From positions 1 through 37,620 of the forward strand of contig SLSW01000197.1 in assembly GCA_007130245.1 (NCBI GenBank): a DNA stretch of 37,620 nucleotides, read 5' to 3'. Positions 1 to 30,387 of this stretch are shown here, in pieces. How positions within the stretch are numbered: the stretch's first letter is position 1; each line of letters opens with the position of its first letter. The notes below the pieces were generated by a model that was not told the DNA's origin, made no database searches, and saw nothing but the letters and a program-made list of their open reading frames with translations. Source of the stretch: Micromonosporaceae bacterium. Its GTDB lineage: Bacteria; Actinomycetota; Actinomycetes; Mycobacteriales; Micromonosporaceae. Both the position numbers and the translations under genes were made by a program.

Positions 1-405
1 CGGTTCAACACCGCCATCGCCAAGCTGATCGAGCTGACCAACCGGGTCACCGCGATCTCCACGGCCGAGGCCGGCACCCCGCGGGCGGTGGTCGAGCCGC
101 TGGTGCTGATGGTCTCGCCGTTCGCGCCGCACCTGGCCGAGGAGCTGTGGCGGCGGCTGGGTCACGACGACAGCGTTGCCTACCAGCCCTTCCCGGAAGC
201 CGACCCGGCCTGGCTGGTGATTGAGCAGGTGACCTACCCGGTGCAGGTCAACGGCAAGGTGCGCGGCCGGGTCGAGGTGCCCGCCGACGCGGCTGAGGAT
301 GTGGTACGGGCGGCGGCGCTGGAGGCGGTCTCCGCCCACCTCGGCGGCGCCGAACCCCGCAAGGTGATCGTGGTGCCCGGCCGGATGGTCAGCGTAGTGA
401 TCTGA
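1..405 (+). CDS. leuS: Leucyl-tRNA synthetase, C-terminal end (partial)
   Basis: LeuRS charges tRNA-Leu with leucine in the cytoplasm. The frame is open from base 1, so the gene starts upstream of the window and only its last 134 residues are present. They hold the end of the anticodon-binding helical domain ([14 protein letters not shown], then [14 protein letters not shown]) and the small C-terminal domain with the family signature [17 protein letters not shown]. These are seen directly and are diagnostic of class Ia bacterial LeuRS. The stop TGA is at 403-405. The gene converges on the giant protease gene, with a strong hairpin at 643-691 between them. Nothing in the visible part looks damaged. 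Confidence 0.93.
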
Positions 406-691: not shown

Positions 692-3600
692 TCAGTCGAG
701 GCCGGGGCCGTCGATGACCAGCAGGTGGTCGCCGATCTGGAGTTCCGCGCTCACCGTGAACTCACCCGGAAGCAGTTCCTCCAGGTCCACGGTGCCCACG
801 TAGAAGCCGGTCGCCCAGACCATGTTCTCCCGGGCGACTTCCACGCCGTCGTCGTAGACCACCATCTCCGCGGAGTCCGCCGGCGCCGGCCGGTCAGGCG
901 CACCCTCCAGGCCCAACCGGACCACCCGGGCGTCGCCCTGCCCGATGACCTGCCAGGACGGCACCCACCGGGACACCGTCACCGGCACCGACGGCGCCGA
1001 CTCGCCGCGCAGGTTGGTCACCACCGCGGTCAGCTCGTTGTCACCGACCTCCAGCGGCACCTCCGCCGACCAGGTGCCGTCTGCCTCGACGCCTGACGTG
1101 GCCACCGGCTCGCCGTCGCGCAGCACCGTGACCTGCCACGGCCATTCGGCGGTGCCGCTGACGGTGATGGTGTCTTCGATCGTCGCCGGGGCGTCGGCGG
1201 CCATGGTGGGCGCCTGCGGCAGGTCGAGCTCGGCCTGCCGCGCCCAGTCGACCGCGTTGACCAGCAGCTGGCGGCCGTCGGCCGTCCAGCCCAGGCCGGG
1301 GCCGACCGCCTCGGTCACCGCGCTGGACGACAGCAGCACCTCGACACTGCCGGCGGTGCGCCAGTCGTACGCGACCGCCAGGCCGGTCGCCGGCTCAGCG
1401 CTGTCGCGGTCGACGTGCAGGTCGGCCAGTTCCCAGCCGCCGTGCACACCGGTGTACGCCTCGATGACGCTGTAGTAGCCGCCCTCGACGATCAGCGTCG
1501 CCGGGTCGTCACCCAGCTCGCCGAACAGCGGATGATCGGCGTCGAAGCCGGTCAGCTGCACCGACCCGTCGCCGTAGCCCTGCGCGCCGACCTGGACCCG
1601 GTCGCTGAACTGCTCCAGCAGCCGGATGCCGCCGCGGTCGACCGCCCAGGTGCCGGTGAACACCAGCGAGGCCTCGGCCTCGTCGGCGGCGCCGAGCACC
1701 GCGGTGAACACCTCCTCGTCCGGCGAGCCGCCGTTGACCACGATCACCTCGTACGAGCCGAGGTCGAGGTCGGCGGCCCAATCCAGCTCGCCGGCGGGCA
1801 CGTCCGCCTCGCGCAGGAAGCTGGTCATCGTGCCGTCGACGTCACCGAGCACGCCGACCACGATCGGCTGCAGGGTCACGTCCAGCGTGGCCGGCACCTC
1901 GGCGTCGATGGTGACGGTGGCGGTCGCCGACAGGTAGCCGTCGGCGGTGATGGTCACCTCGTAATCGCCCTCCAGCAGGTCGTCTGCGGTGTAGCCGCCG
2001 TCGTCGCCGGTGGTGGCCGTCCACTCCAGCAGGCCGTCTCCGGTCAGCGTGGCACCCGCCACCGGCTCGCCGGTGGTGGACGTGACCGTGCCGGACACCT
2101 CGCCGCGCGGCAGCGGCACCAGGTCCACATCCAGCGTCACCGTGCCCGACTCCGGCACGTCCACCGTCTCGGTGGTGGTCTCGAAGCCGAACGCGGACAC
2201 CTCGATGGTGTGTTCGCCCTGCGTCAGACCCAGGGAGTAGGTGCCGTCCGCGGCGGTCACCGCGGTGGAGCCAGCCTCCAGGGACCGGACCGTGGCACCC
2301 GCCAGCGGTTCCCCGTCACCGGTGACCACGCCGGCCAGCTCGGCCTGGGTGGCGTCGAGAGACCACGCCACCGCGTTGAGGTAGATCTGTCGAGCGTTGT
2401 CGGTCCAGCGACTGTCCGGCCACCCGTGCGTGACCGCGGCCAGGCTGCCCAGCAGCAGCTCCACGCTCGTGGCCGAGCTGAACTGGTAACCGACCGCGCC
2501 GCCCAGGTCCTCACCGGTGACCCGGTTGTGCACGTGCGCGATCGTCTCGCCGCCGTAACCCGAGAACGAACCCCACTGCTGGTTGTTGTTGCTCAGAGTG
2601 CTGGTGATCAGCTCGACCTGCTCGCCGACCGGGAAGCCGGCGAAGATCGGGTGGGCGGCGTGTGCGACGTAGTCGACACCGAAGTCGCCACTGACGAAGC
2701 CCCAGTCCACCTCGGCCGGGTCGCCACGGTACTCCGACAACCGGGGTATCGCGTGGGTGCTGCCGAACTGGCTCGGGTAGATCGCCGACACGCCGGCGTC
2801 CGCCGCGGCGTCCACCGCGGTCTGGAACGGGTCGACCTGAGAGCCGAAGATCGTGGCGTTGAAGATCACCAGCTCGTAGTCGTCGATCCCGTCGGCCAGC
2901 GCGGCCATCTGGGAGCGGGGCCACAGGTCCACCTCGTAGCCCTCGTTCTCCAGCATTGCCGCCAGCGACACCCCGTGCGTGCTGGAACCGGTGGTGTCGA
3001 CCACCGCGACCGGCGAGGTCGCCGGCAGCTGCACGTTGACCGGGGTGGTCTGGTCGGCGGTGACCGTCACCGGCACCTGTACCGCCCGGAACCCGTCGGC
3101 GGTCACCCGCATCGTCCAGTCGCCCTCGGGCACCATGTCGAGCGTGTAGTCGCCGCCGGCGCCGGTGCTGGTGGACAGCGGCGTGTCCAGCAGGCTCACC
3201 TGCGCGTCGGCCACTGCATCGCCGTCCGGCCCGGTGACGGTGCCCGCCAGCGTGCCCGCGGGCAGCGCCGTGAGCGTGAGCTGCTCGCTCACCGAGTCAC
3301 CGGAGTCCACCGTCACCTCAAAGGTCTGACCCTCGTGACCGAACGCGCTGACCGCCAGCGTCCACGTGCCCGGCTGCAACGGCACCAGGAAGGTGCCGTC
3401 GCCTTCCCGGCCGTGGTAGACGCGGCCGGTCTCGAGCACCTCCGCCTGGCTGGCGATGGTGCCACCGAGGTCACTGGTTACGGTGCCCAGCACCTCGGCG
3501 CCGATGCCCTGCGCGTCCAGCGCCCAGTCCAGCGCGTTGACGAAGACCCGTTCGGCCTCCGACGTCCAGTTCAGCGCGTCCGACTGCCGGGTCGACGGCG

Positions 3601-6600
3601 CACCCCAGGTGGTCACCGACATGGTCGACAGCAGCACGTCCACGGTGCCGGTGGTGCGCCCGCGGTAGGCGATGGTGGCGCCCACCTCGCCGTCGTCGCC
3701 GGTGGCCAGGTTCGCCACCGTGGTGCCACCGAACTCGTCGAAGAACGTGTAGCGGCCGTTGTTCGTCATCAGGTCGAACTCGTCCGGCAGCCCGGCGACG
3801 AGCGCGTGGTCGTCGACCACGTGCGCGGTGACCGCGCCGTCGTTGAAGCCCTGCCCGATGACGGCCGGGTCGTCGTGGTGTTCGTGGAGGAACTGGATGG
3901 CGCCACGGTTGTGCTGACCCATCCACAGCACCGGCACGCCGGTGCGGTTCACCTCCTCCTCGAACGCCTGCAGCTGCTCAGCGCTGACATCCAGGCCGAA
4001 GTCGGACACGTTGGCCACGATCAGGTCCATGTCACCGATGCGGTCCATCGAGTCGAACCCGATGTCCTCGGCCTGGTAACCCCAGTCGGCCAGGAACTCC
4101 TTGCCCCGGTCGCGGGAGTTGGTGAAGTCGGAGTCGTCGATGATGCCGACCTGCGGGGACACCCGCAGCGTGACGTCCCGCCCGGTGACCTCGTCCACGG
4201 TGACCTCGACCGCCGCGAGCTTGCGCACGTGCCCGTCGAACTCCACCTCCAGCTCGTAGCTGCCCGGCTCCACCAGATCGAAGGCGTACGAGCCGTCCGG
4301 GGCGGTGTGCGTCTGGTACGGGGTGCCGAGCAGGTCCACCCGGGCACCGTCCAGCGCCCCGTCCTCGGCGGAGCTGACCACGCCGGCGATTCCGCCGACG
4401 TCGCCGACCTCCAGTTCGACCGACGCGTCGGCGGTCTCGTCGGGGGCCACGGTGACGGTGCGCTGCCCGTCGACGTAGCCGAACGCCGAGTAGTGCAGCG
4501 TGTGCTCGCCCGCAGAGACCCCGATCTCGAACACGCCGTCGGAATCGGTGACCGCGGACCAGTTGCTACCGGCCACCTCGACCGTCGCCTGCGGGATCGG
4601 CTGCCCGGCGGGGTCGGTAACCGTCCCGACCAGGCCGCTGACCCCCGGCGCGGCGGCCCAGCGGACCGCGTTGAGGAAGATCCGCTGGCCCTGCGGAGTC
4701 CAGTTGCCCTCCGGGTTGTTGCGGAAGGTGGCGGCCAGGCCGCTGAGCAGCACATGCACGTTGTCCGGGGTACGGACGTCGTAGGCCATGCCCATGCCGG
4801 CCGGTGCGTCGTCACCTTCAGCCACGTCGGCCAGCGCGACGCCGCCGTACTCCGGCCAGTATCCCGCTTCCGAGGAACTGGTCAGGATCTGCACCGGCTC
4901 GTCGCCCACCCCCTCGAACAGCGGGTGGTCGACCAGGTTGTGCAGGTAGATCTCGTCGCCGCGGAACCCACCCAGCCGGCCGTAGTCGGGCGGGTCGCCG
5001 GTGTAGTTGACCAGCATGTCGAACCCACGGGTACGGAAGGACCACCCGTCGGTCGGGAAGATCACACTGACCCCGGCGGAGTCGAAGGCCGCCAGCGCGT
5101 CCAGGAACTCGTCCTGGCTGACGCTGGACGGGTGGTGCAGCACCACGACCTCCACCTCGTCGAGGTCGTCGACGACCTCCCACCCGGCCTGCTCGACCGG
5201 GATCGAGTGACTCTCCAGGAAGTTCGAGATCTGGCTGAGCCGGTCGCCGACCACGACCACGCCGGGCGCGCGCGCCAGCGCCACGTCCACTGTGGTGACC
5301 GCCCCGTCGGTGACCTCGACGCCGGTCACGGTGGCTGCCTCGTACCCGTCGGCGGCGACCTCGATGTCGTAGCTGCCGCCCGGCACGTCCTCGATCACGT
5401 ACCCGCCGTCGGCGCCGGTGGTGACCGGGGGCACCGAGGTGCCCGCTACGGTGACCGTCGCGCCCGTGATCGGCGAGCCGCTGCCGTCCTCGGTGACCTG
5501 ACCGGTGACGGTGCCCAGCTCGGCCTGCGGCAGCGACACGTCGTGCACGTGGATCTGGCCGGCGCCCACGTCCACCGTCAGCTCCACGGTCTGCGCGCCC
5601 ACGAACCGGTAGCGCAATGTGTGCTCACCGGGCGCCAGCAGCAGCTCGTAGCCGCCGTCGGCGTCGGCGACGGTGTGCGCGATCCCGTCGACCACCTCCA
5701 CGGTGGCCGCCAGCGGCGCGTCGGCGTGGTCGGTGACCTGGCCGGTGACCGTGCCGTACGCCGCCTGGGCGGCGTGGTCGACCGCGCCGGCGAGCAGGTC
5801 GGCTGCGGCCGGCTGCCAGTCTGACCACGGCGACGGTGCCAGCGCCGGCAGCAGCACGTGGTTGCTGTCCATGGTGCGCGGCTGGTAGCCGACACCGCTG
5901 CCGCGCTGGCCGTCCCGGTCGTTGCCGAGCACCGCGAGGGTGTGCCCGCTGTAGCCGGTGAACCACGCGTGCCAGCTGGTGGCCTCCAGCAGCGGCACCC
6001 GCGGCGTGTCCGGCAGCAGCGCGGTCACCGGGTGGTCGACCACGTTCTCCAGCCACACCTCGCCGCGGTTGGACAGCTCCGCCGGCGCCGCCGCCGGGTC
6101 CCCGGTGGCCTGCGACAGCGCCCGCACCGAGCCGTAGCTCGGTCCGCCGGTGTCGAGGAACACCAGGCTGGTGCCGGCCTCGTCGGCCTCGGTGACGATC
6201 TGGGCGAGCCGGTCCAGGTCCGCGTCGGCCCGGTCGGTGCCGGAGCCGGAGATCACCACCGCGCCGTAGTGGCCGAGCGTGCCGACGATGTCGTCGAACG
6301 ACACCGAGTCCACGCGCCACCCGCGGTCGGTCAGCGCCTGGCTGACCCGGCCCTCGAAGTCGGCCACCACCGCCACGTCGAACCGCTCCAGCGCGTAGTC
6401 GACCACGGTGGTCTCGCCGGCGACGATGGTGACGGTGTCCTCGGTGCGCGCGTAACCGTCGGCGTCCACCACCAGCTGGTAGGTGCCGGCGGCGACCTCG
6501 TCGAACCCGTACCCGCCGTCGTCGCCGGTGGTCGCCGGCTCCAGCGGGGTCGGCGACAGCGTCACCGTGGCGCCCGGCAGCGGCGCTCCGTTCTCGTCGC

Positions 6601-9600
6601 TGACGACGCCGGCCAGCGCGCCGGTGCCCACCGCGGCGAGTTCCACATCGAGTGTGCTCGCCTGGGCGACCAGGATCTGCACGGTGTGCGTCTGCGGCTC
6701 GAACCCGTACTGCGACACCTCGATGGTGTGCGCGCCCGGCGGCAGACCCGCCAGCTCGTACTCACCGGTGTCGGGGTCGGAGGTGACCTCCCGGTCGGCC
6801 TCGACTGCGCGCACCGTGGCCGCCACCGGCCCGTCGGGGCCGGTGACCACACCGCGCAGCTGGCCGGTGGGGTGGAACGCGTGCAGCCTGCCGGAGCCGT
6901 CGGCGGTCACCAGCCAGCCGTCGGCGTACGCGGGCGACGAGGTCAGGTTGGAGCTGACCGGCTGCTCCCACACCAGCTGCCCGGTGGCGGCGTCCAGCGC
7001 GAACACCCGCTGGTCGCCCTGCGACCCGGCGACCACGTACCCGTCGCCGCTGACCAGCACCGAGGCGCTGACCGCACCGCTGGTGGCCAGGCCGTAGTGC
7101 CACATCGGCTGCCCGGTGGCGCGGTCGTACGCGCCGATCACGCCCTGCCCGTGCGAGCCGGCGATGACCACGTCGCCGTGCACCGCCGGGGTGGTGCCCT
7201 GCCCGTCGCCGTGGGTGGGCGCCTCCCACTGCAGCTCACCCGTGGCGGCGTCGACCGCCAGCAGGCTGCCCTGCCAACCGGGAGCGAAGCCGCCCGGCGG
7301 CACCGAGGTGGTGGCGTACACCGCACCGCCGGCGATGGCCGGGGCGGCGACGAACTCGTCGTGCTCGCGGGTCAGCGTCCACAGCTGGTCGCCGGTGTCC
7401 GCGTCCAGCGCCACCAGGTGGCGTTCCCCGGCGCTGCTGGCGACCACCATCCCGTCGGCCACCGCCGGCCCGAAGAACACCCGCGTGCCGATGTCGGCCG
7501 ACCAGATGACCGAGCCGTCGGCGGCGTCGATGGCGAACAGGGTGTCGGAGCGGTCCGGGGTGAAGCCGGTGGCGGCGTAGACCACGCCGTCCTGCACCAC
7601 CGGCGCGGTGTAGATGGTGCGCCGCTGCGGTGTGTCCACCGTCCACACCAGTTCGCCGGTGGTCGCGTCCACCGCGTGGATGCCGCCGTCGAGGCCGCCG
7701 CCGGTGTAGACCAGGCCGTCGGCGACCGCCGGGGTGCCGCGCATGGCGTCGCCGCCGGCGAAGCTCCACAGCTGCTCGCCGCTGGTCAGGTCGTGGGCGA
7801 CCAGCCGACCGTTGTCGTGGTTGACGTACGCCGCGCCGTCGGCGATGACCGGCGAGGAGAACACGATCGAGCCGCCGGCCGGGGCGTCCCAGGCCGGTTC
7901 CAGGGTGGCCGCGGCCAGGCTGTCGCCGCTGCGACCCGTGCGCGCCGGGTTGTTCTGGTACTGCGCCCACCCTGGCGCGGAGACCTCGGCGGCCGGCGTG
8001 AGGTCGATGGTGATGTCGGTGGCGCCGTCGACAGCCAGTTCGATCACCTTCGGGGTGAAGCTGCCGGCGGACACGTGCAGGTCGTAGGTGCCCTCGGCGA
8101 CGGTCAGGGCGAACGCCCCGTCGCCGTCGGTGCGGGTGGCCGGCACCGGGGTGTCCGCCAGCGCCACCCGCGCGTCGGGCACCGGCCCGTCCGGGCCGCT
8201 CACCGTGCCGGACAGGGTCTGCTCGTCGGTGGCGGCCAGGGTCACGTCCAGGCTCACCAGGCCATCGACGCTCACCTCCACCTGGTGGGTCTGCGTGGCA
8301 TAGCCGTACGCGGAGAAGGTCACCTCATGCGTACCCTCGGTCAGCCGCAGCGCGTACGTGCCGGTGCCGGCGTCGGCGGTGGTGTGGCGCGCGGCGGTGC
8401 TCACGGAGGCCGCCACCGGAGCGCCGGCGGTGTCGGTGACGGTGCCGGCGACGGTGCCGCTGTGGGCGGCGTGGGTCACCGCGGCGTACGCGTCGACGAC
8501 CCCGGACCCGTACGCGTTGGGGAGTGCCGTCATGTGCGACGCGTCGCGGGCGCTGGTCTGCAGCGCTTCGCGTACCTCGTCGACGGTCAGGTCGGGGGAG
8601 GCCGACAGCAGCAGCGCGACCACGCCGGCCACGTGCGGTGAGGCCATCGACGTGCCGGAGATGGTGTGGTACCCGTCGTCGGACAGGTGCGTCGGCCAGG
8701 CCGAACGGATCTGGTAGCCGGGCGCGCTGACCTCCGGCTTGGTGTACTCGACGCCGTCCCACACCACCGGTCCGCGGCTGGAGAAGAAGGCGATCCGGTC
8801 CTCGATGTCGGTGGCGCCCACGCCGATCGCGTGCGGGAAGCTCGCCGGCGATCCCACGGTGCCCGTGCCCGGTCCGGCGTTGCCGTTGGCGAACACCGGC
8901 ACGATGCCGGCGGCCACCCAGGCGGCGACGGCGTCCCAGTACTCAGTGCGGTGGGTGGCGTTCGAACCCCACGAGTTGTTGACCACGTGCGGTGCCGCCG
9001 ACGGATCACCGCCGGGGGCGAGCATCCACTGGAACCCGGCCTGGACGACGCTGTCGGTGGTGGAACCGAAGTCGGTGAAGATCTTGGCGGCGATCCACTG
9101 CGCGTCCGGAGCCACGCCGGTGATCTCGCCGGGTGGTTGACCGACGATGCTGCCGGTCACGTGGGTGCCGTGGCCGTGGCCGTCACCGGGCTGCGGGTAG
9201 TTCTCCCCGGTGGGCACGAACCAGCTCGCGTCCGGATCGCCGTCGTTGCCGCGCCAGGTGTCGGCCAACGCCGGGTGGCCGCCGTCGACGCCGGTGTCCA
9301 TGACGCCGACGACCACACCGTCGCCGCGCACCCCGAGATCACCCCAGGTGTCCGGGGCGTTGACGTTCTCCAGGCTCCAGATCGGCAGCAGTGGCTCGTC
9401 GTCGGCCGGCACCGGCTCCTCGATCTCGAGGGTCTCGTCGACGGTCACGCTGGCCACGTCCGGGTGCGCCGCGAGCGCGTCCAGCGCCGTCTGGTCGACG
9501 GTGGCGGCGAACCCGTTGAAGATCCAGAACTCGACCACGTCGTCGACCCCACCGGTGTCCTGATGGCGGGCGAGCAGGTTGCGGACGCCGGCCTGGCTGG

Positions 9601-10207
9601 CGGCGGCGACCGACTGCAGGGCGTCGACCACCACCTGACCCCTCGCCTCGCGGGCGGCCTCGCGCGCGAGGCGTGCGGCGTGGGCGGGCCCACCCTGGCC
9701 CTGCAGCTCGCGGGCGACCGCGGCGGCGGCGGCGCGCGCGGCGGTGGCGGCCTGCTGCTCGACCTCGGCCATGTCGGCCTGCTCGTGCAGCCGGATCACC
9801 ACGGCGGCGCTGCCGTCCGCGTCGACGGCAGCGCGCACGTCATCGGATATGCCGGACGGCGACGTCGTGGTGCTCTCCGACGCGGGTCGCGCCGCGTCCG
9901 GGTCCGGACCGTCCGTGCCGGGCAGACTCGAATAGACGTCCATGACCTCGCCCGCCGACTCTCCGGCGGGTTCTCCGACCGGCGCCGGCCGTGTGGTCAG
10001 TGGCGTGGTCGCGGACGTCGCCGCGGTTGCCGGCGCGCCCGTGCCGAGGCCGGTCGCGGGGGACTCCACCGCGGAGGTCGGCGAGGGCGGGACAGACAAC
10101 GCGCCCGACCCGGACGGGGCGGACGCGAGAGCTGGCGGGGCGAGCCCCAGGACCAGGGCTACCGCGGAGGCGGCGGCGAGAGCGGAACGGGGAGTGAGCC
10201 TGAACAT
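692..10207 (-). CDS. Giant secreted S8 (subtilisin-like) serine protease with PQQ propeller and five CarboxypepD_reg/GATase-like modules
   Basis: A secreted multidomain subtilase of 3171 residues. I place the start at ATG 10207: GGAAGG lies 7 nt upstream, and translation opens with a classic signal peptide (MFRLTPRSALAAASAVALVL, ending near ALASA). The in-frame GTG at 10225 lacks such a site. Order: signal peptide; Ala/Arg-rich propeptide-like region to about 290; S8 catalytic domain with Asp304 (VMDTGV), His346 (HGTHVTG) and Ser520 (GTSMASPH); a pair of CarboxypepD_reg-like beta-sandwiches; a PQQ/BamB-type beta-propeller about 745-1110 with repeated DATTGELVW-like blades; five modules about 1112-2995, each two CarboxypepD_reg domains plus a flavodoxin-like GATase/ThuA-type domain ending NAVxWA; and Ig-like C-terminal domains. 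I see no cysteine and only about five lysines. No sorting signal or C-terminal membrane helix is seen, so release to the medium or wall is inferred. Substrate unknown. Confidence 0.9.
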   Translation of the reverse strand: MFRLTPRSALAAASAVALVLGLAPPALASAPSGSGALSVPPSPTSAVESPATGLGTGAPATAATSATTPLTTRPAPVGEPAGESAGEVMDVYSSLPGTDGPDPDAARPASESTTTSPSGISDDVRAAVDADGSAAVVIRLHEQADMAEVEQQAATAARAAAAAVARELQGQGGPAHAARLAREAAREARGQVVVDALQSVAAASQAGVRNLLARHQDTGGVDDVVEFWIFNGFAATVDQTALDALAAHPDVASVTVDETLEIEEPVPADDEPLLPIWSLENVNAPDTWGDLGVRGDGVVVGVMDTGVDGGHPALADTWRGNDGDPDASWFVPTGENYPQPGDGHGHGTHVTGSIVGQPPGEITGVAPDAQWIAAKIFTDFGSTTDSVVQAGFQWMLAPGGDPSAAPHVVNNSWGSNATHRTEYWDAVAAWVAAGIVPVFANGNAGPGTGTVGSPASFPHAIGVGATDIEDRIAFFSSRGPVVWDGVEYTKPEVSAPGYQIRSAWPTHLSDDGYHTISGTSMASPHVAGVVALLLSASPDLTVDEVREALQTSARDASHMTALPNAYGSGVVDAYAAVTHAAHSGTVAGTVTDTAGAPVAASVSTAARHTTADAGTGTYALRLTEGTHEVTFSAYGYATQTHQVEVSVDGLVSLDVTLAATDEQTLSGTVSGPDGPVPDARVALADTPVPATRTDGDGAFALTVAEGTYDLHVSAGSFTPKVIELAVDGATDITIDLTPAAEVSAPGWAQYQNNPARTGRSGDSLAAATLEPAWDAPAGGSIVFSSPVIADGAAYVNHDNGRLVAHDLTSGEQLWSFAGGDAMRGTPAVADGLVYTGGGLDGGIHAVDATTGELVWTVDTPQRRTIYTAPVVQDGVVYAATGFTPDRSDTLFAIDAADGSVIWSADIGTRVFFGPAVADGMVVASSAGERHLVALDADTGDQLWTLTREHDEFVAAPAIAGGAVYATTSVPPGGFAPGWQGSLLAVDAATGELQWEAPTHGDGQGTTPAVHGDVVIAGSHGQGVIGAYDRATGQPMWHYGLATSGAVSASVLVSGDGYVVAGSQGDQRVFALDAATGQLVWEQPVSSNLTSSPAYADGWLVTADGSGRLHAFHPTGQLRGVVTGPDGPVAATVRAVEADREVTSDPDTGEYELAGLPPGAHTIEVSQYGFEPQTHTVQILVAQASTLDVELAAVGTGALAGVVSDENGAPLPGATVTLSPTPLEPATTGDDGGYGFDEVAAGTYQLVVDADGYARTEDTVTIVAGETTVVDYALERFDVAVVADFEGRVSQALTDRGWRVDSVSFDDIVGTLGHYGAVVISGSGTDRADADLDRLAQIVTEADEAGTSLVFLDTGGPSYGSVRALSQATGDPAAAPAELSNRGEVWLENVVDHPVTALLPDTPRVPLLEATSWHAWFTGYSGHTLAVLGNDRDGQRGSGVGYQPRTMDSNHVLLPALAPSPWSDWQPAAADLLAGAVDHAAQAAYGTVTGQVTDHADAPLAATVEVVDGIAHTVADADGGYELLLAPGEHTLRYRFVGAQTVELTVDVGAGQIHVHDVSLPQAELGTVTGQVTEDGSGSPITGATVTVAGTSVPPVTTGADGGYVIEDVPGGSYDIEVAADGYEAATVTGVEVTDGAVTTVDVALARAPGVVVVGDRLSQISNFLESHSIPVEQAGWEVVDDLDEVEVVVLHHPSSVSQDEFLDALAAFDSAGVSVIFPTDGWSFRTRGFDMLVNYTGDPPDYGRLGGFRGDEIYLHNLVDHPLFEGVGDEPVQILTSSSEAGYWPEYGGVALADVAEGDDAPAGMGMAYDVRTPDNVHVLLSGLAATFRNNPEGNWTPQGQRIFLNAVRWAAAPGVSGLVGTVTDPAGQPIPQATVEVAGSNWSAVTDSDGVFEIGVSAGEHTLHYSAFGYVDGQRTVTVAPDETADASVELEVGDVGGIAGVVSSAEDGALDGARVDLLGTPYQTHTAPDGSYAFDLVEPGSYELEVEFDGHVRKLAAVEVTVDEVTGRDVTLRVSPQVGIIDDSDFTNSRDRGKEFLADWGYQAEDIGFDSMDRIGDMDLIVANVSDFGLDVSAEQLQAFEEEVNRTGVPVLWMGQHNRGAIQFLHEHHDDPAVIGQGFNDGAVTAHVVDDHALVAGLPDEFDLMTNNGRYTFFDEFGGTTVANLATGDDGEVGATIAYRGRTTGTVDVLLSTMSVTTWGAPSTRQSDALNWTSEAERVFVNALDWALDAQGIGAEVLGTVTSDLGGTIASQAEVLETGRVYHGREGDGTFLVPLQPGTWTLAVSAFGHEGQTFEVTVDSGDSVSEQLTLTALPAGTLAGTVTGPDGDAVADAQVSLLDTPLSTSTGAGGDYTLDMVPEGDWTMRVTADGFRAVQVPVTVTADQTTPVNVQLPATSPVAVVDTTGSSTHGVSLAAMLENEGYEVDLWPRSQMAALADGIDDYELVIFNATIFGSQVDPFQTAVDAAADAGVSAIYPSQFGSTHAIPRLSEYRGDPAEVDWGFVSGDFGVDYVAHAAHPIFAGFPVGEQVELITSTLSNNNQQWGSFSGYGGETIAHVHNRVTGEDLGGAVGYQFSSATSVELLLGSLAAVTHGWPDSRWTDNARQIYLNAVAWSLDATQAELAGVVTGDGEPLAGATVRSLEAGSTAVTAADGTYSLGLTQGEHTIEVSAFGFETTTETVDVPESGTVTLDVDLVPLPRGEVSGTVTSTTGEPVAGATLTGDGLLEWTATTGDDGGYTADDLLEGDYEVTITADGYLSATATVTIDAEVPATLDVTLQPIVVGVLGDVDGTMTSFLREADVPAGELDWAADLDLGSYEVIVVNGGSPDEEVFTAVLGAADEAEASLVFTGTWAVDRGGIRLLEQFSDRVQVGAQGYGDGSVQLTGFDADHPLFGELGDDPATLIVEGGYYSVIEAYTGVHGGWELADLHVDRDSAEPATGLAVAYDWRTAGSVEVLLSSSAVTEAVGPGLGWTADGRQLLVNAVDWARQAELDLPQAPTMAADAPATIEDTITVSGTAEWPWQVTVLRDGEPVATSGVEADGTWSAEVPLEVGDNELTAVVTNLRGESAPSVPVTVSRWVPSWQVIGQGDARVVRLGLEGAPDRPAPADSAEMVVYDDGVEVARENMVWATGFYVGTVDLEELLPGEFTVSAELQIGDHLLVIDGPGLD
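1220..6868 (-). repeat. Five tandem ~1.1-kb coding modules (2x CarboxypepD_reg + degenerate GATase/ThuA-like domain)
   Basis: Within the giant protease gene, five units follow each other at about 6868-5760, 5759-4640, 4639-3500, 3499-2345 and 2344-1220. Each has two domains of the form GTVTGxVTDxxGxPxxGAxV...TxxDGxYxL..L..GxYxxxVxAxGY, then a Rossmann-like domain. The Rossmann-like domains open at about residues 1275, 1647, 2018, 2398 and 2782 with hydrophobic strands such as FDVAVVADFEG, PGVVVVGD, PQVGIIDDSD, SPVAVVDTTG and IVVGVLGDVDG, and close with VxVLLS and (L/V)NAVxWA. The copies are strongly diverged at residue level, so the array is old. The GATase-like assignment is fold-level inference. 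Confidence 0.75.
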
Positions 10208-10331
10208 CGGGGGGCCTTCCGACACGCGACACTAAGGCCTCCCCAGACCTGGAAGAAATCCTAACGAGCCTCGCGGCCTTAGCATTAGGTCAAATGACTC
10301 AAACAATGGAATGCGAGGGTCGGCAACGGCG
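10208..10331 (-). promoter_or_regulatory. Lower-GC leader of the protease gene with inverted repeats
   Basis: The gap between the gatD stop and the protease start is clearly richer in A/T than its surroundings. It holds a 7-bp inverted repeat (TAAGGCC 10233-10239 with GGCCTTA 10275-10281), a second pair (CCTAA 10260-10264 with TTAGG 10285-10289) and, near 10289-10305, the near-direct repeat TCAAATGAC/TCAAACAAT. On the minus strand TTGACC and TAGGAT occur but lie 24 bp apart, too far for a standard promoter. A promoter and operator are likely here; the exact elements are not resolved. Confidence 0.35.
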
Positions 10332-11078
10332 TCAGGACCGCGGGACCGCGGCCAGGCGCTCGGCCCGCAGGCGTCCGGTCCAGGTCGCATCCAGTTCAGC
10401 AAGCTCCCCGGCGCCGGTCGCCCACCGCAGCAGCAGGTCGGCCAGGGCCGGGTTGCGCGCCAGCGCCGGGCCGTGGCAGTACGTGCCGAGCACGGTGCCC
10501 CGGTAGGCGCCCTCGGTGTGACCGTCGTTGCCTATGCCCGCGGTGACCCGCGCCAGCGGCCGCGCGTCGGACCCCACGTGGGTGCGGCCGCCGTGGTTCT
10601 CGAAGCCGGTCAGTGCCGGCAGCCCCAGCGCCGGGTCTACCTGACCGGCGAGCTCCCCGACCGCGCGCGTCTCGCCGCGGTCGGAGTGCACATCGAGCAG
10701 CGCGATCCCCGCGCACCGGTCTCCCTTGGCCACGAACGAGGTGCCCATGACCTGGTAACCGGCGCACACCGCAAAGATGACCGATCCCAGCTCCACCGCC
10801 CGACCGAGGGCTCCGTCGGCGGCCAGGCGCTTGGCCGCCAGGGTCTGCGGCCCGTCCTCGCCGCCGCCGATCAGGTAGATGTCAGCCTGCTCCGGGATCT
10901 TCTCGTCGGAACGCACCTCGAAGGCCTCCACCGCCACGCCGCGGGCCACCGCCCGGTGGGTGAGGATGAGCAGGTTGCCACGGTCGCCGTAGGTGGACAT
11001 CAGGTCGGGGTACAGCCACACCACCCGCAGCGCGGACTCGCTCGCGCGCGGCGGGGCCGGGGTCGACTCAGAGGACAC
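10332..11078 (-). CDS. gatD: Lipid II isoglutaminyl synthase (glutamine-hydrolysing) subunit GatD
   Basis: GatD is the glutaminase subunit of the MurT-GatD complex, which amidates the alpha-carboxyl of D-Glu in the lipid II stem peptide on the cytoplasmic face. It supplies ammonia to MurT. The 248-residue protein is a CobB/CobQ-like class I amidotransferase with nucleophile Cys105 (AVCAGYQ) and His202 (TYCHGPAL); the oxyanion-side glycine segment is IGGGEDGPQ near residue 70. Length fits the family. The GTG start lies inside the end of murT (11-bp overlap), so the two are translationally coupled, as expected for subunits needed in equal amounts. Nothing odd is seen. Confidence 0.93.
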   Translation of the reverse strand: MSSESTPAPPRASESALRVVWLYPDLMSTYGDRGNLLILTHRAVARGVAVEAFEVRSDEKIPEQADIYLIGGGEDGPQTLAAKRLAADGALGRAVELGSVIFAVCAGYQVMGTSFVAKGDRCAGIALLDVHSDRGETRAVGELAGQVDPALGLPALTGFENHGGRTHVGSDARPLARVTAGIGNDGHTEGAYRGTVLGTYCHGPALARNPALADLLLRWATGAGELAELDATWTGRLRAERLAAVPRS

Positions 11079-12282
11079 GGTCCAGCTCCGCTCGGATGTC
11101 CTGGAAAGCGGTGTAGTTGGCGATCACTTCCAGCCGCCCCGGCGGGACCGCGGCGACCGCGTCGGCGAAGGTGGTGTGGTGGGTGAACGGCACGTCGTTG
11201 ACCTGCAGCCGCACCGCCAGGTCGTAGGCGCGGTCGCCGGTTATCAGCACCGGCCGCCCACGCAGCGGTGAGAAGTCCACATCGAACAGCCAGGAGGTGT
11301 CCAGCCCGTCCGGGCCGCGGGCGTTGACCGCCAACAGGGTGGGCGCCTGCTCGGCCATGTCGAACGCCTCCAGCCAGCTGGCGGGGTTCTTGGCCAGCAG
11401 CAGCCGGATCAGCCGCCCGTCCCGCTCGACCTGGGCGTAGCGGCCAGCCACCGAGGCGACCTCACCAAGGTGGGGCACCGCGCTGGCGGGCCCGACCCCG
11501 AAGGCGGCCGCGACCGCCAGCGCGGTGGCGGCGTTGCCCACGTTGACCTGTCCGGGTAGCGCCAGTTTCACCTCGTGACGCGTGCCGTCCGGGGCGATCA
11601 CCTCGTGTTCGGTGGCGGTCCACTGTGGTTCGGGACGCTGCAGGTCGCATCCGGCGCAGCGCCAGTGCTCGCCGTCGCGCACGATGGCGGCCCCGCACTG
11701 GGGGCAGACCCAGGAGTCGTCGTGCCAGCGCTGACCGGCGCTGAACCAGCTCACCCGCTTGGTCGCGCCGGCGGCCCAGGCCACCATCGGATCGTCGGCG
11801 TTGGCCACCACCTCCACCTCCGGGTGGGTGGCCAGCGCGTCGCGCCACAGTTTGGCGATCATCGCCACCTCTTTGGCGCGGTCGAGCTGGTCGCGGGAGA
11901 GGTTCAGCAGCGCCACCACCGCCGCGCCGGTGGGGCCGAGCACGTGCGGCAGCCAGTGCTCGTCGACCTCCAGCACCGCGTAGCGGGCCTCGTGGTCGCG
12001 GGCCAGCGCGGACACGTGGCCGGTGGGCATGTTGGCGCCGAACGAGTTGGTGGCCACCGGTCCGAGCACCCCGAGCGCGGCGGCGGTCAGCCGGGTGGTG
12101 GTGGTCTTGCCGTTGGTGCCGCTGACCAGCGCGACTGTGCGTCCGGCCGACAGGCGGTCGAGCAGCTTGGGGTCGACCAGCAGGCCGATGCGCCCGCCGA
12201 TGACCGAGCCGTCGCCGCGCCCGGTGGCCCGCGACACCGCCGCCGCCGTCCGCGACAGCGCGCTGGCGATCCGGGCGCGCAC
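11068..12282 (-). CDS. murT: Lipid II isoglutaminyl synthase subunit MurT (Mur ligase family)
   Basis: MurT is the ATP-using Mur-ligase-like partner of GatD; together they convert the D-iGlu of lipid II to D-iGln. Visible features (numbered from GTG 12300) are the P-loop GTNGKTTTTR at 61-70, NSFGANMPTGH, EVDEHWLP at 111-118, LLNLSRDQLDR and the MurT-specific Cys4 zinc ribbon (Cys199, Cys202, Cys215, Cys218) inserted in the central domain. Two starts compete. GTG 12300 lies just downstream of a TACCCT box and could be leaderless. GTG 12282 has GAGGGGAAG about 7-9 nt upstream and gives an N-terminus (VRARIASALSRT) that begins closer to conserved sequence; I use the latter (404 residues). The gene reads directly into gatD. 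Confidence 0.92.
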   Translation of the reverse strand: MRARIASALSRTAAAVSRATGRGDGSVIGGRIGLLVDPKLLDRLSAGRTVALVSGTNGKTTTTRLTAAALGVLGPVATNSFGANMPTGHVSALARDHEARYAVLEVDEHWLPHVLGPTGAAVVALLNLSRDQLDRAKEVAMIAKLWRDALATHPEVEVVANADDPMVAWAAGATKRVSWFSAGQRWHDDSWVCPQCGAAIVRDGEHWRCAGCDLQRPEPQWTATEHEVIAPDGTRHEVKLALPGQVNVGNAATALAVAAAFGVGPASAVPHLGEVASVAGRYAQVERDGRLIRLLLAKNPASWLEAFDMAEQAPTLLAVNARGPDGLDTSWLFDVDFSPLRGRPVLITGDRAYDLAVRLQVNDVPFTHHTTFADAVAAVPPGRLEVIANYTAFQDIRAELDRVL

Positions 12283-12348
12283 CGGCAGCTTCCCCTCCAC
12301 GCACGCAGGGTACCGAAAGTGACAGATCCGGCGGGACGCGGTGGCCGG

Positions 12349-21610: not shown

Positions 21611-23527
21611 GTGGCACAGACTCCCCCCTCAGCCGGCCACCCCGGGCGGCAGCTGCTGGTCCTCGGGCTGGCGTTCGCGTTCCTGTTCGGCATGATGTTC
21701 TTCGCCGGCACCGCCGGCATGAGCACCACCGAGCGGATAACCCCGAAGCTCGGTCTCGACCTGATCGGCGGCACCCGGGTCGTCATGCAGGCGGTCACGG
21801 TCGACGGGCAGGAACCCGAGCCCGACCAGCTCGAGCAGGCGCGCCAGATCATCGAGAGCCGCGTGAACGCGCTCGGTGTGGAAGAGGCGGAGGTCGTCAG
21901 CGAGGGCGGCGACCTGATCGTCATCTCGGTGGCGGGGGAGAGTGAAGACGCCCTGCGCTCCGTGGGCGACCCGGCGGAGCTGCGATTCCGCAAGGTGCTC
22001 GCCCGCACCGCCGCCGGGGTGAGCCCGCCGGAGCTGCCCGACGCCGAGGCCACGCCGGATCCGGACGCCAGTCCGGACCCGGAGGCGAGCCCAGCCCCGG
22101 AGACCAGCCCGCAGCCGGAGGCCACCCCGGCGCCGTCACCAGAGGCGGCCACCGAGGAGGAGACCGACATCGAGGCGCCGGAGGACCTGCGGGACCAGGT
22201 GATGCAGATCGTCGGCGAGGAGGCCATGCAGGCCGCGCTCGGGCTGACCGCCCCGGTCGACCCGGCCGAGGACCCGGAACTCGCGCAACTGCTGCAGCCG
22301 TTCGGCGAGCTGGACGGCCCGCAGGTGGCGGTGCTGCCGACCCGGGTGCAGTTCAACGTGCCCGACATCACCTGCGAGCAGCTCAACGCCCGTCCCGCCG
22401 GCTCGATCCAGGATCCGGATGAGCTGGTGGTGGCCTGCGACGCGCAAGGCTTCGGCTTCAAGAACCTGCTCGATCGGTCGACGGTGCTCGGCACCGCGGT
22501 CGACGACGCCAGCGCCGTCGTCGACACCAACGTCAACCAGTGGGTCGTCAGCCTCAGCTTCAACCGGGAGGGCCAGCGCAACTGGACCGACCTGACCCGG
22601 GAGGCCGTCCGGCCCGACGCCGGCGTCCCGCTGGAGCAGCAGCAGATCGCCGAGGACAACACCTACGCCGGCGAGCGGCCGATCCAGTGCGACCCGTTCA
22701 GCGCGCGTGGGCCGTCCGACGGCCACTGCCTGGTCGCGGTGGTGCTGGACAACCAGGTGGTCTCCGCGCCGGAGATCCGCAGTGTGATCGGCGGCGACGC
22801 GGAGATCCGCGGCGACTTCACCGCCGCCGAGGCCAGGGAGCTGGCCACCCAGCTGCGCTACGGTGCGCTGCCGCTGACGTTCGTGCCGCAGGAGGAGCAG
22901 ACGGTCACCCCGACGCTCGGCCTCGAGTACCTGCGCGCCGGCCTGATCGCCGCCGGCATCGGCGTGGTGCTGGTGATGGCGTACGTGTTCTTCTACTACC
23001 GTCTGCTCGGCCTGGTGATCTTCGGCAGCCTGATCGTCTCCTCACTGCTGACGTTCGCCGCCCTGGTGGTGCTGGGTCGCGGCATCGGCTACACCCTGAC
23101 GCTGGCCGGCATATCCGGGTTCATCGTCGCGGTAGGTATCGCCTCCGACTCGTTCATCATCTACTTCGAACGCCTCAAGGATGAGATCCGCAGCGGTCGC
23201 ACCGCCCGCAGCGCGGTGCCTCGTGCCTGGGTGCGGGCACGGCGCACCATCCTGACCGCCAACGCGGTCACCCTGATGGCGGCGATCGTGCTCTACCTGC
23301 TGTCGGCGGGACAGGTGCGCGGGTTCGCCTTCGCGCTCGGGCTCGCCACCATTCTCGACCTGCTGACCGTGTTCACGTTCCGCCATCCGATGATGGTCCT
23401 GCTGGCGCGCACCAGGGCGTTCCTGTCGCCGACGGTCAGTGGCCTGGGCAAGGCACTGGAACTGGACCGCAAGGCGGCGGGGACCACGCCTGCGGGGCCG
23501 GGCATGCCGCAGACGAAGGAGGCGTGA
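21611..23527 (+). CDS. secD: Protein translocase subunit SecD
   Basis: SecD with SecF uses the proton gradient to help release and fold proteins on the outer face of the membrane. The 638-residue protein has an N-terminal helix (about 15-33), the LGLDLIGGTRVVMQ motif (47-60), a large extracytoplasmic P1 region and five C-terminal helices (about 441-603) with GIASDSFIIYFERLKDE, the SecD/SecF D4-type motif. An odd feature is a low-complexity insert at about 140-185, rich in Pro, Glu, Asp, Ser and Thr (repeats like SPDPEASPAPETSP), interrupting the P1 region. GTG 21611 is used. The stop lies 3 bp before the secF start. Confidence 0.95.
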   Translation: MAQTPPSAGHPGRQLLVLGLAFAFLFGMMFFAGTAGMSTTERITPKLGLDLIGGTRVVMQAVTVDGQEPEPDQLEQARQIIESRVNALGVEEAEVVSEGGDLIVISVAGESEDALRSVGDPAELRFRKVLARTAAGVSPPELPDAEATPDPDASPDPEASPAPETSPQPEATPAPSPEAATEEETDIEAPEDLRDQVMQIVGEEAMQAALGLTAPVDPAEDPELAQLLQPFGELDGPQVAVLPTRVQFNVPDITCEQLNARPAGSIQDPDELVVACDAQGFGFKNLLDRSTVLGTAVDDASAVVDTNVNQWVVSLSFNREGQRNWTDLTREAVRPDAGVPLEQQQIAEDNTYAGERPIQCDPFSARGPSDGHCLVAVVLDNQVVSAPEIRSVIGGDAEIRGDFTAAEARELATQLRYGALPLTFVPQEEQTVTPTLGLEYLRAGLIAAGIGVVLVMAYVFFYYRLLGLVIFGSLIVSSLLTFAALVVLGRGIGYTLTLAGISGFIVAVGIASDSFIIYFERLKDEIRSGRTARSAVPRAWVRARRTILTANAVTLMAAIVLYLLSAGQVRGFAFALGLATILDLLTVFTFRHPMMVLLARTRAFLSPTVSGLGKALELDRKAAGTTPAGPGMPQTKEA

Positions 23528-23529
23528 CG

Positions 23530-24708
23530 ATGACCAGCCCGGTGCAGGACCAGACCCCGGAGCCGGAACAGCACAGGCACTCGTGGGCGGCACGCCTCTA
23601 CCTCGGCCAGGCCGGCATCAACATCATCGACTGGCGGCGTCGCTGGTTCATCGCCGCGGCGGTGCTCGTGCTGATCGCCATCGGCGGCATGGGATTCCGC
23701 GGGTTCGACTTCGGCATGGAGTTCACCGGCGGCAACGCGTTCGAGATCCCGGTCGAGGCGGCCGACTCACTGCAGCAGGCCGAGCAGGCGATCGACGACG
23801 CCGGCGCCTCAGTGGCCTCCGCCCAGGAGCTGGGCACCACCCACTACCTGATCCGCACCCACGAGCTGGAGGCGGACGAGACGCTTGCGGTCAAGGAACG
23901 CGCCGCGCAGATCCTCGACTTTCCGGCAGCGGAGATCAGCGACAGCCTCGTCAGCGCGGCCTGGGGCGGTCACATCACCGATCGGGCTCTGCTCGCGCTG
24001 GCGGTGTTCCTCGCCCTGGTGGTCACGTATCTGATCATCCGGTTCGAGGCACGGGCGGCGCTGGCCGCGGTCAGCGGCCTCGCGCTCGACATCACCTTTG
24101 TCGCCGGCATCTACGCCATCGTCGGCTTCGAGGTCACCCCCGCAACAGTGATCGGGTTCCTGACCATCATGGGCTTCGGCCTCTACGACACCGTGGTGGT
24201 CTTCGACAAGATCCACGAGAACACCAAGGGCATCACCGCCAGCAACACCGAGACCTATGCGGAGGGGGCGAACCTCGCCGTCAACCAGGTCATGATGCGT
24301 ACGATCAACACCTCGATCGTGTCGCTGCTGCCGGTGGGTGGGCTGCTGTTCATCGGCGCGGGACTGCTCGGCGCCGGCACCCTGAAGGACCTCGGCCTGG
24401 TGCTGTTCGTCGGCATCGCGGTGTCGTTCTACACCTCGCTGTTCTTCTCCTCGCCGCTGCTGGTGGAGCTCAAGTCGCGTGAGCCACGGTTCCGGGCCCA
24501 CACCCAGCGGGTGCTGGCCAAGCGCGCCGCGCTGGCCCACCGCGAGGCGCGCAAGGCCGGCAAGTCCGACACGGAGGAGCCGCCACCGCCGCCGGTGGTC
24601 AACCCGGAGCTGATCGAGCTCGCTGGCGCCGCCCCGAAGGTGGGTGCGCGCCCGACCCAGCCCAGACGCGGCGGCAAGAAGCGTTCCGGTGGTGCAAAGA
24701 AGCGATGA
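23530..24708 (+). CDS. secF: Protein translocase subunit SecF
   Basis: SecF is the partner of SecD in the Sec accessory complex. The 392-residue protein has a first helix at about 37-57, the motif FDFGMEFTGGNAFEI just after it, and C-terminal helices carrying GFGLYDTVVVFDKIHEN. I use ATG 23530, which has GGAGG 7 nt upstream; the in-frame GTG at 23524 would leave almost no spacing. The cytoplasmic tail is long and basic, with a proline run (EEPPPPPVVNPE) and ending RRGGKKRSGGAKKR, common in actinobacterial SecF. The stop overlaps the apt start (ATGA). Confidence 0.95.
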   Translation: MTSPVQDQTPEPEQHRHSWAARLYLGQAGINIIDWRRRWFIAAAVLVLIAIGGMGFRGFDFGMEFTGGNAFEIPVEAADSLQQAEQAIDDAGASVASAQELGTTHYLIRTHELEADETLAVKERAAQILDFPAAEISDSLVSAAWGGHITDRALLALAVFLALVVTYLIIRFEARAALAAVSGLALDITFVAGIYAIVGFEVTPATVIGFLTIMGFGLYDTVVVFDKIHENTKGITASNTETYAEGANLAVNQVMMRTINTSIVSLLPVGGLLFIGAGLLGAGTLKDLGLVLFVGIAVSFYTSLFFSSPLLVELKSREPRFRAHTQRVLAKRAALAHREARKAGKSDTEEPPPPPVVNPELIELAGAAPKVGARPTQPRRGGKKRSGGAKKR

Positions 24709-25250
24709 GTGAGGTCACCGGCGACAGCGGTCCCGAGCTGGCGGCCCTGGTCGCTGACCGGGTGCTCGACGTGCCCGGCTTCCCGCACGCCGGCATCGTG
24801 TTCAAGGACCTCAGCCCGCTGTTCGCCGACCCGGTGGCATTCCGCCGGGTGGTCGACGCGACGGTGCACGCCCACGACGGGTTCGATGTCGTTGTCGGCA
24901 TCGAGGCCCGTGGGTTCGTGCTGGCCGCCGCGGTGGCGTACGCGGCCGGCGTCGGCGTGGTGCCGGTGCGCAAGGCCGGAAAGCTGCCGCGGGACACCCA
25001 CGCGGCCAGCTATGCGCTGGAGTACGGCGAGGCCACCCTCGAGGTGCACCGGGACGCGTTCGCCGCCGGCCAGCGCGTGCTCGTGGTCGACGACGTGCTC
25101 GCTACCGGCGGCACCGCCCAGGCCGCGCTGCAACTGGTGGAGCAGGCCGGCGCCTCGCCGCTAGGGCTCACCGTGGTGGTCGAGCTGTCGTTCCTCGGCG
25201 GCCGGGCGCGGGTGGACGCCCACCCGGTGCACTCCCTGCTGATCGTGTAA
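24705..25250 (+). CDS. apt: Adenine phosphoribosyltransferase
   Basis: Apt converts adenine and PRPP to AMP in purine salvage. The 181-residue protein has the PRPP-binding loop VLVVDDVLATGGTA (125-138), the N-terminal PGFPHAGIVFKDLSPLF signature and GIEARGFVLAAAVA, all typical. The 4-bp overlap with secF places it in the same transcript. It sits between secDF and relA, the usual actinobacterial order. No anomaly is seen. Confidence 0.95.
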   Translation: MSEVTGDSGPELAALVADRVLDVPGFPHAGIVFKDLSPLFADPVAFRRVVDATVHAHDGFDVVVGIEARGFVLAAAVAYAAGVGVVPVRKAGKLPRDTHAASYALEYGEATLEVHRDAFAAGQRVLVVDDVLATGGTAQAALQLVEQAGASPLGLTVVVELSFLGGRARVDAHPVHSLLIV

Positions 25251-25351
25251 CCGATCGGAGTCGCGCAGCGTCGCCACCGACAGCCTCGCCACCACGGCAG
25301 GTACGATTGGCCATCTAGCAGCGAACCCGAGTGCAAAGCGAAGGAGCCGCG

Positions 25352-27754
25352 GTGTCGAGCGACGTCGCGCCCGGCGGCACGACCACCCCGGCGGAGACCG
25401 CCCCCGGCGCCGACAACGGAGCCCAGGGGTCGCCTTCGTCCGCCGCAACCGGTCCGGACATCAGGGATCAGAGTTCGCAGTCGAGTTTTAACCTCGCATC
25501 CGCGCCGACCGGGCGCCGGGTGCGCGCCCGGCTGGCCCGCTTCAACGCGCCGTGGCAGACCCCGGACGTCAGTGAGGTGTTGGAGCCGCTGATCGCCCAG
25601 CACCGGGTCAGTCACCCCAAGGGGGACGTGCGGCTGATCCAACGCGCCTTCGACACCGCCTCGCGATGGCACGCCGGGCAGCACCGCAAGTCCGGCGACC
25701 CGTACATCACCCACCCCTTGGCCGTGGCCACCATCCTGGCCAACCTCGGCATGGACACCATCACGCTGGCGGCGGCGCTGCTGCACGACACCATCGAGGA
25801 TACCGACTACACCCTCGAGCAGATCCGTGCGGACTTCGGGGAGGAGGTGGCGCTGCTGGTCGACGGCGTCACCAAACTGGACGCGGTCAAGCTGGGCGAC
25901 GCCGCCAAGGCCGAGACCATCCGCAAGATGGTCGTGGCGATGGCCAAGGACCCGCGGGTGCTGGTGATCAAGCTGGCCGACCGGCTGCACAACATGCGCA
26001 CCCTGACCTTCCTGCCCCGACCCAAGCAGGAGCAGAAGGCCAAGGAGACTCTGGAGATCCTCGCCCCGCTGGCGCACCGGCTGGGTCTGAACACCCTCAA
26101 GTGGGAGCTGGAGGATCTCGCCTTCGGCACCCTCTACCCGAAGCGGTTCCAGGAGATCAGCCGCCTGATCGCTGACCATCAGCCCCAGCGGGACACGCTG
26201 CTGCGCCAGGTCACCAAGAAGGTGCAGACGGAGCTGAAGGATGCCAAGGTCAAGGCCAAGGTGACCGGCCGACCGAAGCACCTGTACTCGATCTACCAGA
26301 AGATGATCGTACGGGGGCGCGACTTCAACGACATCTACGACCTGATCGGGCTGCGGATCCTGGTCGACACGGTGCGTGACTGTTACGCGGCGCTCGGGGT
26401 GATCCACGCGAACTGGCAGCCGGTGCCGGGCCGGTTCAAGGACTACATCGCGATGCCGAAGTTCAACATGTACCAGTCGCTGCATACCACGGTGATCGGT
26501 CCGTCGGGCAAGCCGGTGGAGATGCAGATCCGCACCGAGGCGATGGACCGCACCGCGGAGTACGGCATCGCGGCGCACTGGAAGTACAAGGAGACCAAGG
26601 ACGCCGCACTGGTCGGTCCACCGGCCCACATCGACAGCATGACCTGGCTGCGCCAGCTACTGGACTGGCAGCGCGAGGCCGCCGAGCCGGGGGAGTTCCT
26701 AGAGGCGCTGCGCTACGACCTGTCCAGCCAGGAGGTGTTCGTCTTCACCCCGAAGGGCGAGGTCATCCCGCTGCCGGCCGGGTCCACGCCGGTCGATTTC
26801 GCCTACGCGGTGCACACCGAGGTCGGGCACCGCTGCATCGGTGCGCGGGTCAACCAGAAGCTGGTGCCGCTGGAGTCCACACTGTCCAACGGTGACGTGA
26901 TCGAGATTTTCACGTCCAAGTCGGAGACGGCCGGACCCAGCCATGACTGGCTCGGGTTCGTCAAGAGCCCCCGCGCTCGCACCAAGATCCGCCAGTACTT
27001 CAACAAGGAGCGGCGGGAGGAGGCGATCGAGGCCGGCAAGGACGCGATCGCCAAGGCGATGCGCAAGCGCGGGCTGCCGCTGCAGCGGATGCTGACCACC
27101 GACTCACTGATGACGATCGCGCGCGAGTTGCACCTGGCCGACGTGACCGCGCTGTACGCCGCGGTGGGGGAGAACCAGTTCTCCGCCCAGTCGGTGGTGC
27201 AGAAGCTGGTGGCAGGCTACGGCGGCGAGGAGGGCGCGGCCGAGGACATCGCCGAGACGCACGTGCCCACCCGGGCGCCGCGCAGCCGCAGCACCACCCA
27301 CGATCCGGGGGTGGTCGTCACCGGGGTCAGCGACGTGTGGATCAAGCTGGCGCGGTGTTGCACCCCGGTGCCGGGCGACACAGTGTTCGGCTTCGTCACT
27401 CGCACCGGCGGGGTGAGCGTGCACCGCGACGACTGTGCCAACGCGGACGACCTGCGTATGCAGTCCGAGCGCATCGTCGAGGTCTCCTGGAAGCCGTCGA
27501 GCGCCTCCAGTTTCCTGGTGCAGATCCAGGTGGAGGCGCTGGACCGGCACAAGCTGCTGGCCGACATCACCCAGGCGCTGTCCGAGGAGCGGGTCAACAT
27601 CCTCAACGCCACCGTGGCCACCACCCGCGACCGGGTGGCGATCAGCCGGTTCAGCTTCGAGATGGCCGACCCCAAGCACCTGGGTCACCTGCTCGGCGCG
27701 GTCAAGAAGGTCGACGGCGTCTACGACGCCTACCGCGTCACCTCCGGCTCCTGA
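25352..27754 (+). CDS. relA: Bifunctional (p)ppGpp synthetase/hydrolase (RelA/SpoT family, Rel)
   Basis: Rel makes and degrades the alarmone (p)ppGpp in response to uncharged tRNA on the ribosome. The 800-residue protein has an HD hydrolase domain ([23 protein letters not shown] near 144), a synthetase domain from about 306 ([32 protein letters not shown] at about 361, EMQIRT), a TGS domain about 460-520, the RCCTPVPGD zinc-finger-like region near 668 and a C-terminal ACT domain. An intact HD motif and the RFKD synthetase motif mark a bifunctional long RSH. GTG 25352 has AAGGAG 5 nt upstream and is preferred to GTG 25331. A weak promoter candidate (TACGAT 25302-25307) lies in the apt-relA gap. 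Confidence 0.95.
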
Positions 27755-27773
27755 CAGCGCCACACCGTCCCGC

Positions 27774-27843
27774 CGATCTTGCACCTGTGCACGTCGTTTG
27801 GTCAACTTTGGACTAATTTATCCCGTGCACAACTGCAAGATCG
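27774..27843. terminator. Long inverted repeat between relA and cyclophilin genes (GATCTTG copy 3, bidirectional terminator candidate)
   Basis: CGATCTTGCACCTGTGCACG (27774-27793) pairs with CGTGCACAACTGCAAGATCG (27824-27843) at 18 of 20 positions around an AT-rich 30-base loop. It lies 19 bp from each of two convergent stop codons, so it can terminate both transcripts. Its outer GATCTTGCA/TGCAAGATC is identical to copy 2, so it also counts as a member of the repeat family. Confidence 0.65.
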
Positions 27844-27862
27844 ACGAGGGACAGGAGGGTGC

Positions 27863-28705: not shown

Positions 28706-28742
28706 GGTTGCCTCCTGCGGCTGGGGTCGGGGTGTCGTTCGC

Positions 28743-29540: not shown

Positions 29541-29670
29541 CGTTTGGTCCTCCGTGCTCGCGGTGAGGTGCGCCCGAGCGAGTGTACGGGTACCGCCTGA
29601 GAATAGGGTGGACCAGGGCGGCTGTCAGGACCGAGGATGGCCGCGAAACGGACAGTTGGGGGTGTGCATC

Positions 29671-30384: not shown

Positions 30385-30387
30385 GAG

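Follow-up and report, generated by a model that had tools for sequence, protein, structure and literature searches.

From the analysis of a 37,620-nucleotide stretch of DNA from a Micromonosporaceae bacterium (the window), a model can be proposed for an unusually long gene, which encodes a real protein built from known domain types and containing a module family that is unnamed. This model proposes a Sec-secreted, propeptide-controlled subtilase in which a C-terminal arm of about 2600 residues serves as a recognition or tethering device, a proposal for which the case for and against seems to us about evenly balanced. Export would most likely proceed through Sec, and the I9 propeptide, judging by its family, would inhibit the protease and aid its folding until it is cleaved off to leave the active enzyme. 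In this arm, five ThuA-like modules and one BamB-like propeller of eight blades would sit on paired transthyretin-like CarboxypepD_reg (CPD) spacers; each module may bind a ligand of its own, or a separate site on a single polymeric or surface target, and so bring the protease to its substrate. The modules are most likely non-catalytic binding domains. The analysis shows the domains themselves, the fold of one module, the lack of Cys, a number and order of modules fixed in two families, and the exchange of one slot in shorter relatives; we infer secretion, activity, the binding, the ligands and the targeting of the protease.

The gene is an intact open reading frame of 3171 aa on the minus strand, from an ATG at 10207 to a stop at 692, and this start is supported by a GGAAGG read 7 nt before it. 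The same frame is open throughout from 10225 to 692, or 3177 codons when counted from a GTG at 10225, and the plus-strand translation of 692-10207 is interrupted by internal stops. Plus-strand, antisense frames of 1469 and 927 aa lie over the gene and are taken as high-GC artefacts. As the very high GC content gives rise to spurious long frames on both strands, open length alone proves little, and it is homology that proves the gene. The earlier note on this DNA had the coordinates and length right and left the strand unstated; the frameshift that it allowed might split the gene in the real genome is excluded by co-linear, full-length orthologs of 3102-3189 aa in other genomes. In composition, Cys is absent, Lys occurs just 5 times in 3077 residues, and 444 acidic stand against 111 basic residues; Lys numbers 3-6 in four orthologs and 29 in another (L077; comparison set L040-L043 and L077). 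The domain list of the earlier note, a predicted-secreted S8 protease with a BamB/PQQ-type propeller, 12 CarboxypepD_reg domains and five GATase-like domains, is supported by Pfam, AlphaFold and Foldseek, and the parts, from N- to C-terminus, are as follows.

9926..10207, minus strand: start ATG at 10207, putative signal peptide (MFRLTPRSALAAASAVALVLGLAPPALASA), then a linker of low complexity (Ala/Pro/Thr/Ser); read from sequence
9356..9925, minus strand: propeptide ending in Inhibitor_I9, of the kind that acts as intramolecular chaperone/inhibitor; Pfam PF05922, 27.6 bits (cut-off 21.2)
8501..9325, minus strand: Peptidase_S8 catalytic domain; Pfam PF00082, 193 bits against a cut-off of 21.8, E 9e-57
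7985..8455, minus strand: CPD domains 1-2; Pfam PF13620/PF13715, boundaries approximate
6875..7984, minus strand: eight-bladed BamB/PQQ-like beta-propeller; PQQ_2 E 1e-41, 8 AxDxxTG-type repeats, Foldseek
6383..6874, minus strand: CPD domains 3-4; Pfam
5753..6382, minus strand: module G1; aligned to G2-G5 and orthologs, position-specific clade with support 100
5270..5752, minus strand: CPD domains 5-6; Pfam
4643..5269, minus strand: module G2; alignment, clade support 90
4160..4642, minus strand: CPD domains 7-8; Pfam
3506..4159, minus strand: module G3, the one modelled; AlphaFold pLDDT 91.1 and pTM 0.90, 1t0b Z 18.7
3017..3505, minus strand: CPD domains 9-10; Pfam
2345..3016, minus strand: module G4; alignment, clade support 100
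1871..2344, minus strand: CPD domains 11-12; Pfam
1226..1870, minus strand: module G5; 62-71% identity to orthologs, clade support 100
692..1225, minus strand: Ig-like domain (Big_6/Glucodextran_B-like, slightly under the Pfam cut-off), a conserved C-terminal domain of about 100 aa, and the stop

The protease head carries the marks of an S8 enzyme, namely the Pfam domain, the Asp-His-Ser triad and the oxyanion Asn within the expected motifs, and the I9-type propeptide. The catalytic triad Asp304/His346/Ser520, which had been noted as intact, and the oxyanion Asn443 are all present (numbering from the ATG), and four orthologs have the same residues at all four positions. When domains are ranked by dN/dS, S8 is the most constrained; the ranking alone is informative, as synonymous sites are compressed by the very high GC content and the ratios themselves were therefore unused. 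Behind the head, 12 CPD stretches exceed the Pfam cut-off (E 1e-150) and are arranged in pairs. The eight AxDxxTG-type repeats, together with Foldseek matches to BamB and to the designed eight-blade Cake8 (TMt up to 0.87), identify the propeller as eight-bladed and BamB-like. It is akin to BamB/PQQ-type propellers in fold and repeat motif, but falls below the cut-off of the BamB NCBIfam equivalog (138.9 against 285.2 bits), lies within a predicted-secreted protease of a Gram-positive organism, and shows no sign of PQQ binding, with a score of 102.9 against the 480.05 cut-off of the PQQ-dependent dehydrogenase NCBIfam and, in a chain without Cys, no adjacent-Cys disulfide of the dehydrogenase PQQ site.

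The five modules, of about 210 aa each (residues 1282-1491, 1653-1861, 2023-2240, 2404-2627 and 2786-3000, numbered from the GTG), are mutually alignable, with 26-33% identity to G1. No credible Pfam or NCBIfam match was obtained for any of them, the Pfam ThuA profile being absent among the module matches up to E 5, and a search of the PDB with the module sequence profile gave nothing credible (best E 0.078). The AlphaFold model of module 3, with 20 modules from four proteins as input, matches class-I amidotransferases and ThuA-like proteins by Foldseek, with E down to 4.5e-8, and by VIA-align the ThuA-like protein 1t0b ranks first (2.9 A over 198 residues). The GATase-like fold proposed in the earlier note was thus correctly called, and the alignment suggests that G1, G2, G4 and G5 share the ThuA/GATase1-like fold of module 3. 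Further structural neighbours of module 3 are the glycan-related OST subunit, GH29/GH42 domains, Agd3 deacetylase and NDST1, a resemblance that alone shows no function, and the scaffold protein IFT52. With ThuA-like proteins (PDB 1t0b, 4jqs) and class-I glutamine amidotransferases the module has its fold in common; it differs from them in its identity of only about 14%, the missing Pfam match, the lack of a Cys nucleophile, and its setting in a predicted extracellular tandem array. There is no Cys in the whole chain, nor in five other complete orthologs, so the modules cannot be cysteine-nucleophile glutamine amidotransferases, the Cys nucleophile of the Cys-His-Glu triad being absent; this rules out the GATase mechanism, though not all ThuA-type hydrolase chemistry.

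Genes for a GatD-type amidotransferase and a MurT ligase lie directly upstream (10332-12348, minus strand), and their presence beside the protease gene in all three genomes of the genus indicates that the gene is stably inherited within it. That a genuine GATase gene adjoins pseudo-GATase modules is probably coincidence. Outside the genus, no conserved neighbourhood giving a functional hint was found; shared ABC-ATPase matches elsewhere were rejected as ordinary paralogs. Elsewhere in the window (1-402 and 21611-33824), the 3' end of leuS and secD-, relA/spoT-, hisS- and prolyl-oligopeptidase-like genes were recognised by eye in the translations.

Relatives were sought with the 981-aa S8-CPD-propeller-CPD part and with a module profile. 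Both other genomes of the genus hold full-length relatives, and orthologs of full length occur in Jiangella muralis (L041, 3109 aa) and Phytoactinopolyspora halophila (L042, 3142 aa). The latter two have a domain order identical to that of the window protein, five modules and no Cys, but most of their modules are only 37-49% identical to those of the window protein, and the Ig-like part near the C-terminus is missing from L042. Across the ortholog alignment all parts occur in the same order with few gaps, at identities of 72-79% for S8, 60-69% for the propeller and 37-73% for the modules; G5 is the module best conserved between Micromonosporaceae and Jiangellaceae. Five-module proteins were also found in one further Micromonosporaceae genus, whole in one genome (G502) and split 4+1 over two overlapping contig ends in another (G516); of the 22 Jiangellaceae genomes, 10 have them too (3102-3144 aa). 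The array is thus present in at least 15 genomes of two families, always with five modules. In an even phylum sample of 396 genomes, it was confined to the genome from which the window comes, with a single match in three others (two weak). The earlier note had named as fatal to its claim an architecture both widespread and already characterised; the first part holds to the extent of those genomes in two families but not in the phylum sample, where no other full-length match was seen, and as to the second, no publication describing the architecture was found in the open-access literature searched.

By maximum likelihood, 30 array modules from six proteins, analysed in one tree with five single modules, fall into a separate clade for each of G1 to G5 across the six proteins (support 90-100). 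Every module is thus more closely related to the one at its position in other species than to the adjacent ones in the same chain. The array was therefore complete before these lineages split, and its fixed number, with a clade for each position, fits five non-redundant roles and not a slippery repeat. Against taxonomy, the modules of L077, from the Micromonosporaceae genome G502, group with those of Jiangellaceae at all five positions, which suggests horizontal transfer of the 9.5-kb gene.

Micromonosporaceae are rich in S8 proteins that look secreted, are 1200-2100 aa long and have one or two CPD domains after S8. After the CPD pair, eight of the shorter S8-CPD relatives examined carry a single ThuA-like module, and others have unrelated sequences in the same slot; their C-termini carry Kelch repeats, malectin, PD40, FG-GAP or CWB2 repeats. 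A profile-profile test rejected the idea that a ThuA-like module is hidden in all S8-CPD relatives, as other relatives hold unrelated domains there. In L044, L046, L047, L049, L091 and L092, L093, one type of domain in this slot resembles, by eye, a nidogen-like domain (FWDDL...EWRN) and another a MAM-like jelly roll. Shorter actinomycete subtilases such as L045, L080, L082 and L098 have the S8-CPD-CPD core in common with the window protein, at about 40-50% identity over the core, but a single module in place of five, no propeller of BamB type, a C-terminus that is usually Kelch or other, and, in most, Cys. One single-module subtilase from another actinomycete family (L082:3109-8814) is very acidic, lacks Cys and has three CWB2 cell-wall-binding repeats. 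Up to three more single-module subtilases occur in genomes of the window's genus (G001:C3, C27, C72; G002:C1:3446974-3447588); the genome of the window itself, an incomplete one, yielded none. The constant S8-CPD core with a varying slot and C-terminus is most simply read as a protease head that is kept while its recognition parts are exchanged, and the window protein as the CPD-CPD-module unit expanded to five, plus the propeller. The description of the downstream part in the earlier note as a binding or scaffold arm fits both the exclusion of cysteine-nucleophile amidotransferase activity by the lack of Cys and the unrelated modules in this slot; what the note observed is thus confirmed, and its interpretation is supported in part.

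Other readings of the arm must be weighed against recognition or tethering. It is unlikely, in our judgement, that the arm has a chiefly structural role, as a scaffold or adhesin rod on the cell surface or outside the cell in which CPD and ThuA-like modules act as spacers and the protease processes its neighbours or itself. Twelve CPD spacers in regular pairs, the impossibility of GATase catalysis, and the CWB2 repeats of a distant single-module relative would all suit such a rod; however, domains acting only as spacers ought to differ in number and become homogenised, whereas the modules here are always five, ancient and diverged, and nothing in the sequence of the protein looks like an anchor, neither an LPXTG motif nor a hydrophobic C-terminal stretch being seen. 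An AlphaFold model of 1062 aa spanning several domains, made with the long protease-positioning rod of the earlier note in mind, reached a pTM of 0.43, at which the inter-domain geometry is not trustworthy.

We consider it quite improbable that the five modules are active ThuA-like enzymes of non-cysteine chemistry, for example in carbohydrate modification, which would give a protease with five additional hydrolase-like sites. The top structural match is indeed a ThuA-like protein, and H118 is conserved among the modules together with other polar positions; a His position (25 of 25) and Asp and Trp positions are among those conserved. However, the five modules have no residue in common at the nucleophile-elbow position, which is of D/Q/T/S type with differing neighbours, and many of the invariant residues, being Gly, Pro or Leu, are structural. 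Secreted subtilases are known to have C-terminal prosequences, and the arm could likewise be mostly a regulatory or stability appendage that is removed after secretion to leave S8 and the first CPD domains as the mature enzyme; this appears very improbable, as the arm is conserved between families, with 60% identity in the propeller and 60-66% in the last CPD pair and G5.

Returning to the recognition or tethering arm, a tentative extension, which we think somewhat unlikely as a whole, is that the five modules are ancient, non-redundant extracellular pseudo-amidotransferase/ThuA-like readers, each position with its own ligand or site, which together may form a multi-site address label directing one protease; they would belong to an unnamed domain family that occurs singly in other subtilases and was expanded once to five. 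The repertoire of secreted subtilases gains an unnamed, predicted-extracellular domain family of ThuA/GATase fold that neither Pfam nor NCBIfam models, together with an array fixed at five such units. For the secreted proteases of actinomycetes, a general rule is suggested by which a constant S8-CPD head is joined to a recognition arm that can be exchanged. Should the modules prove to be binding domains, ligands specific to each position could be tested for directly in hosts that grow in culture, Jiangella muralis among them.
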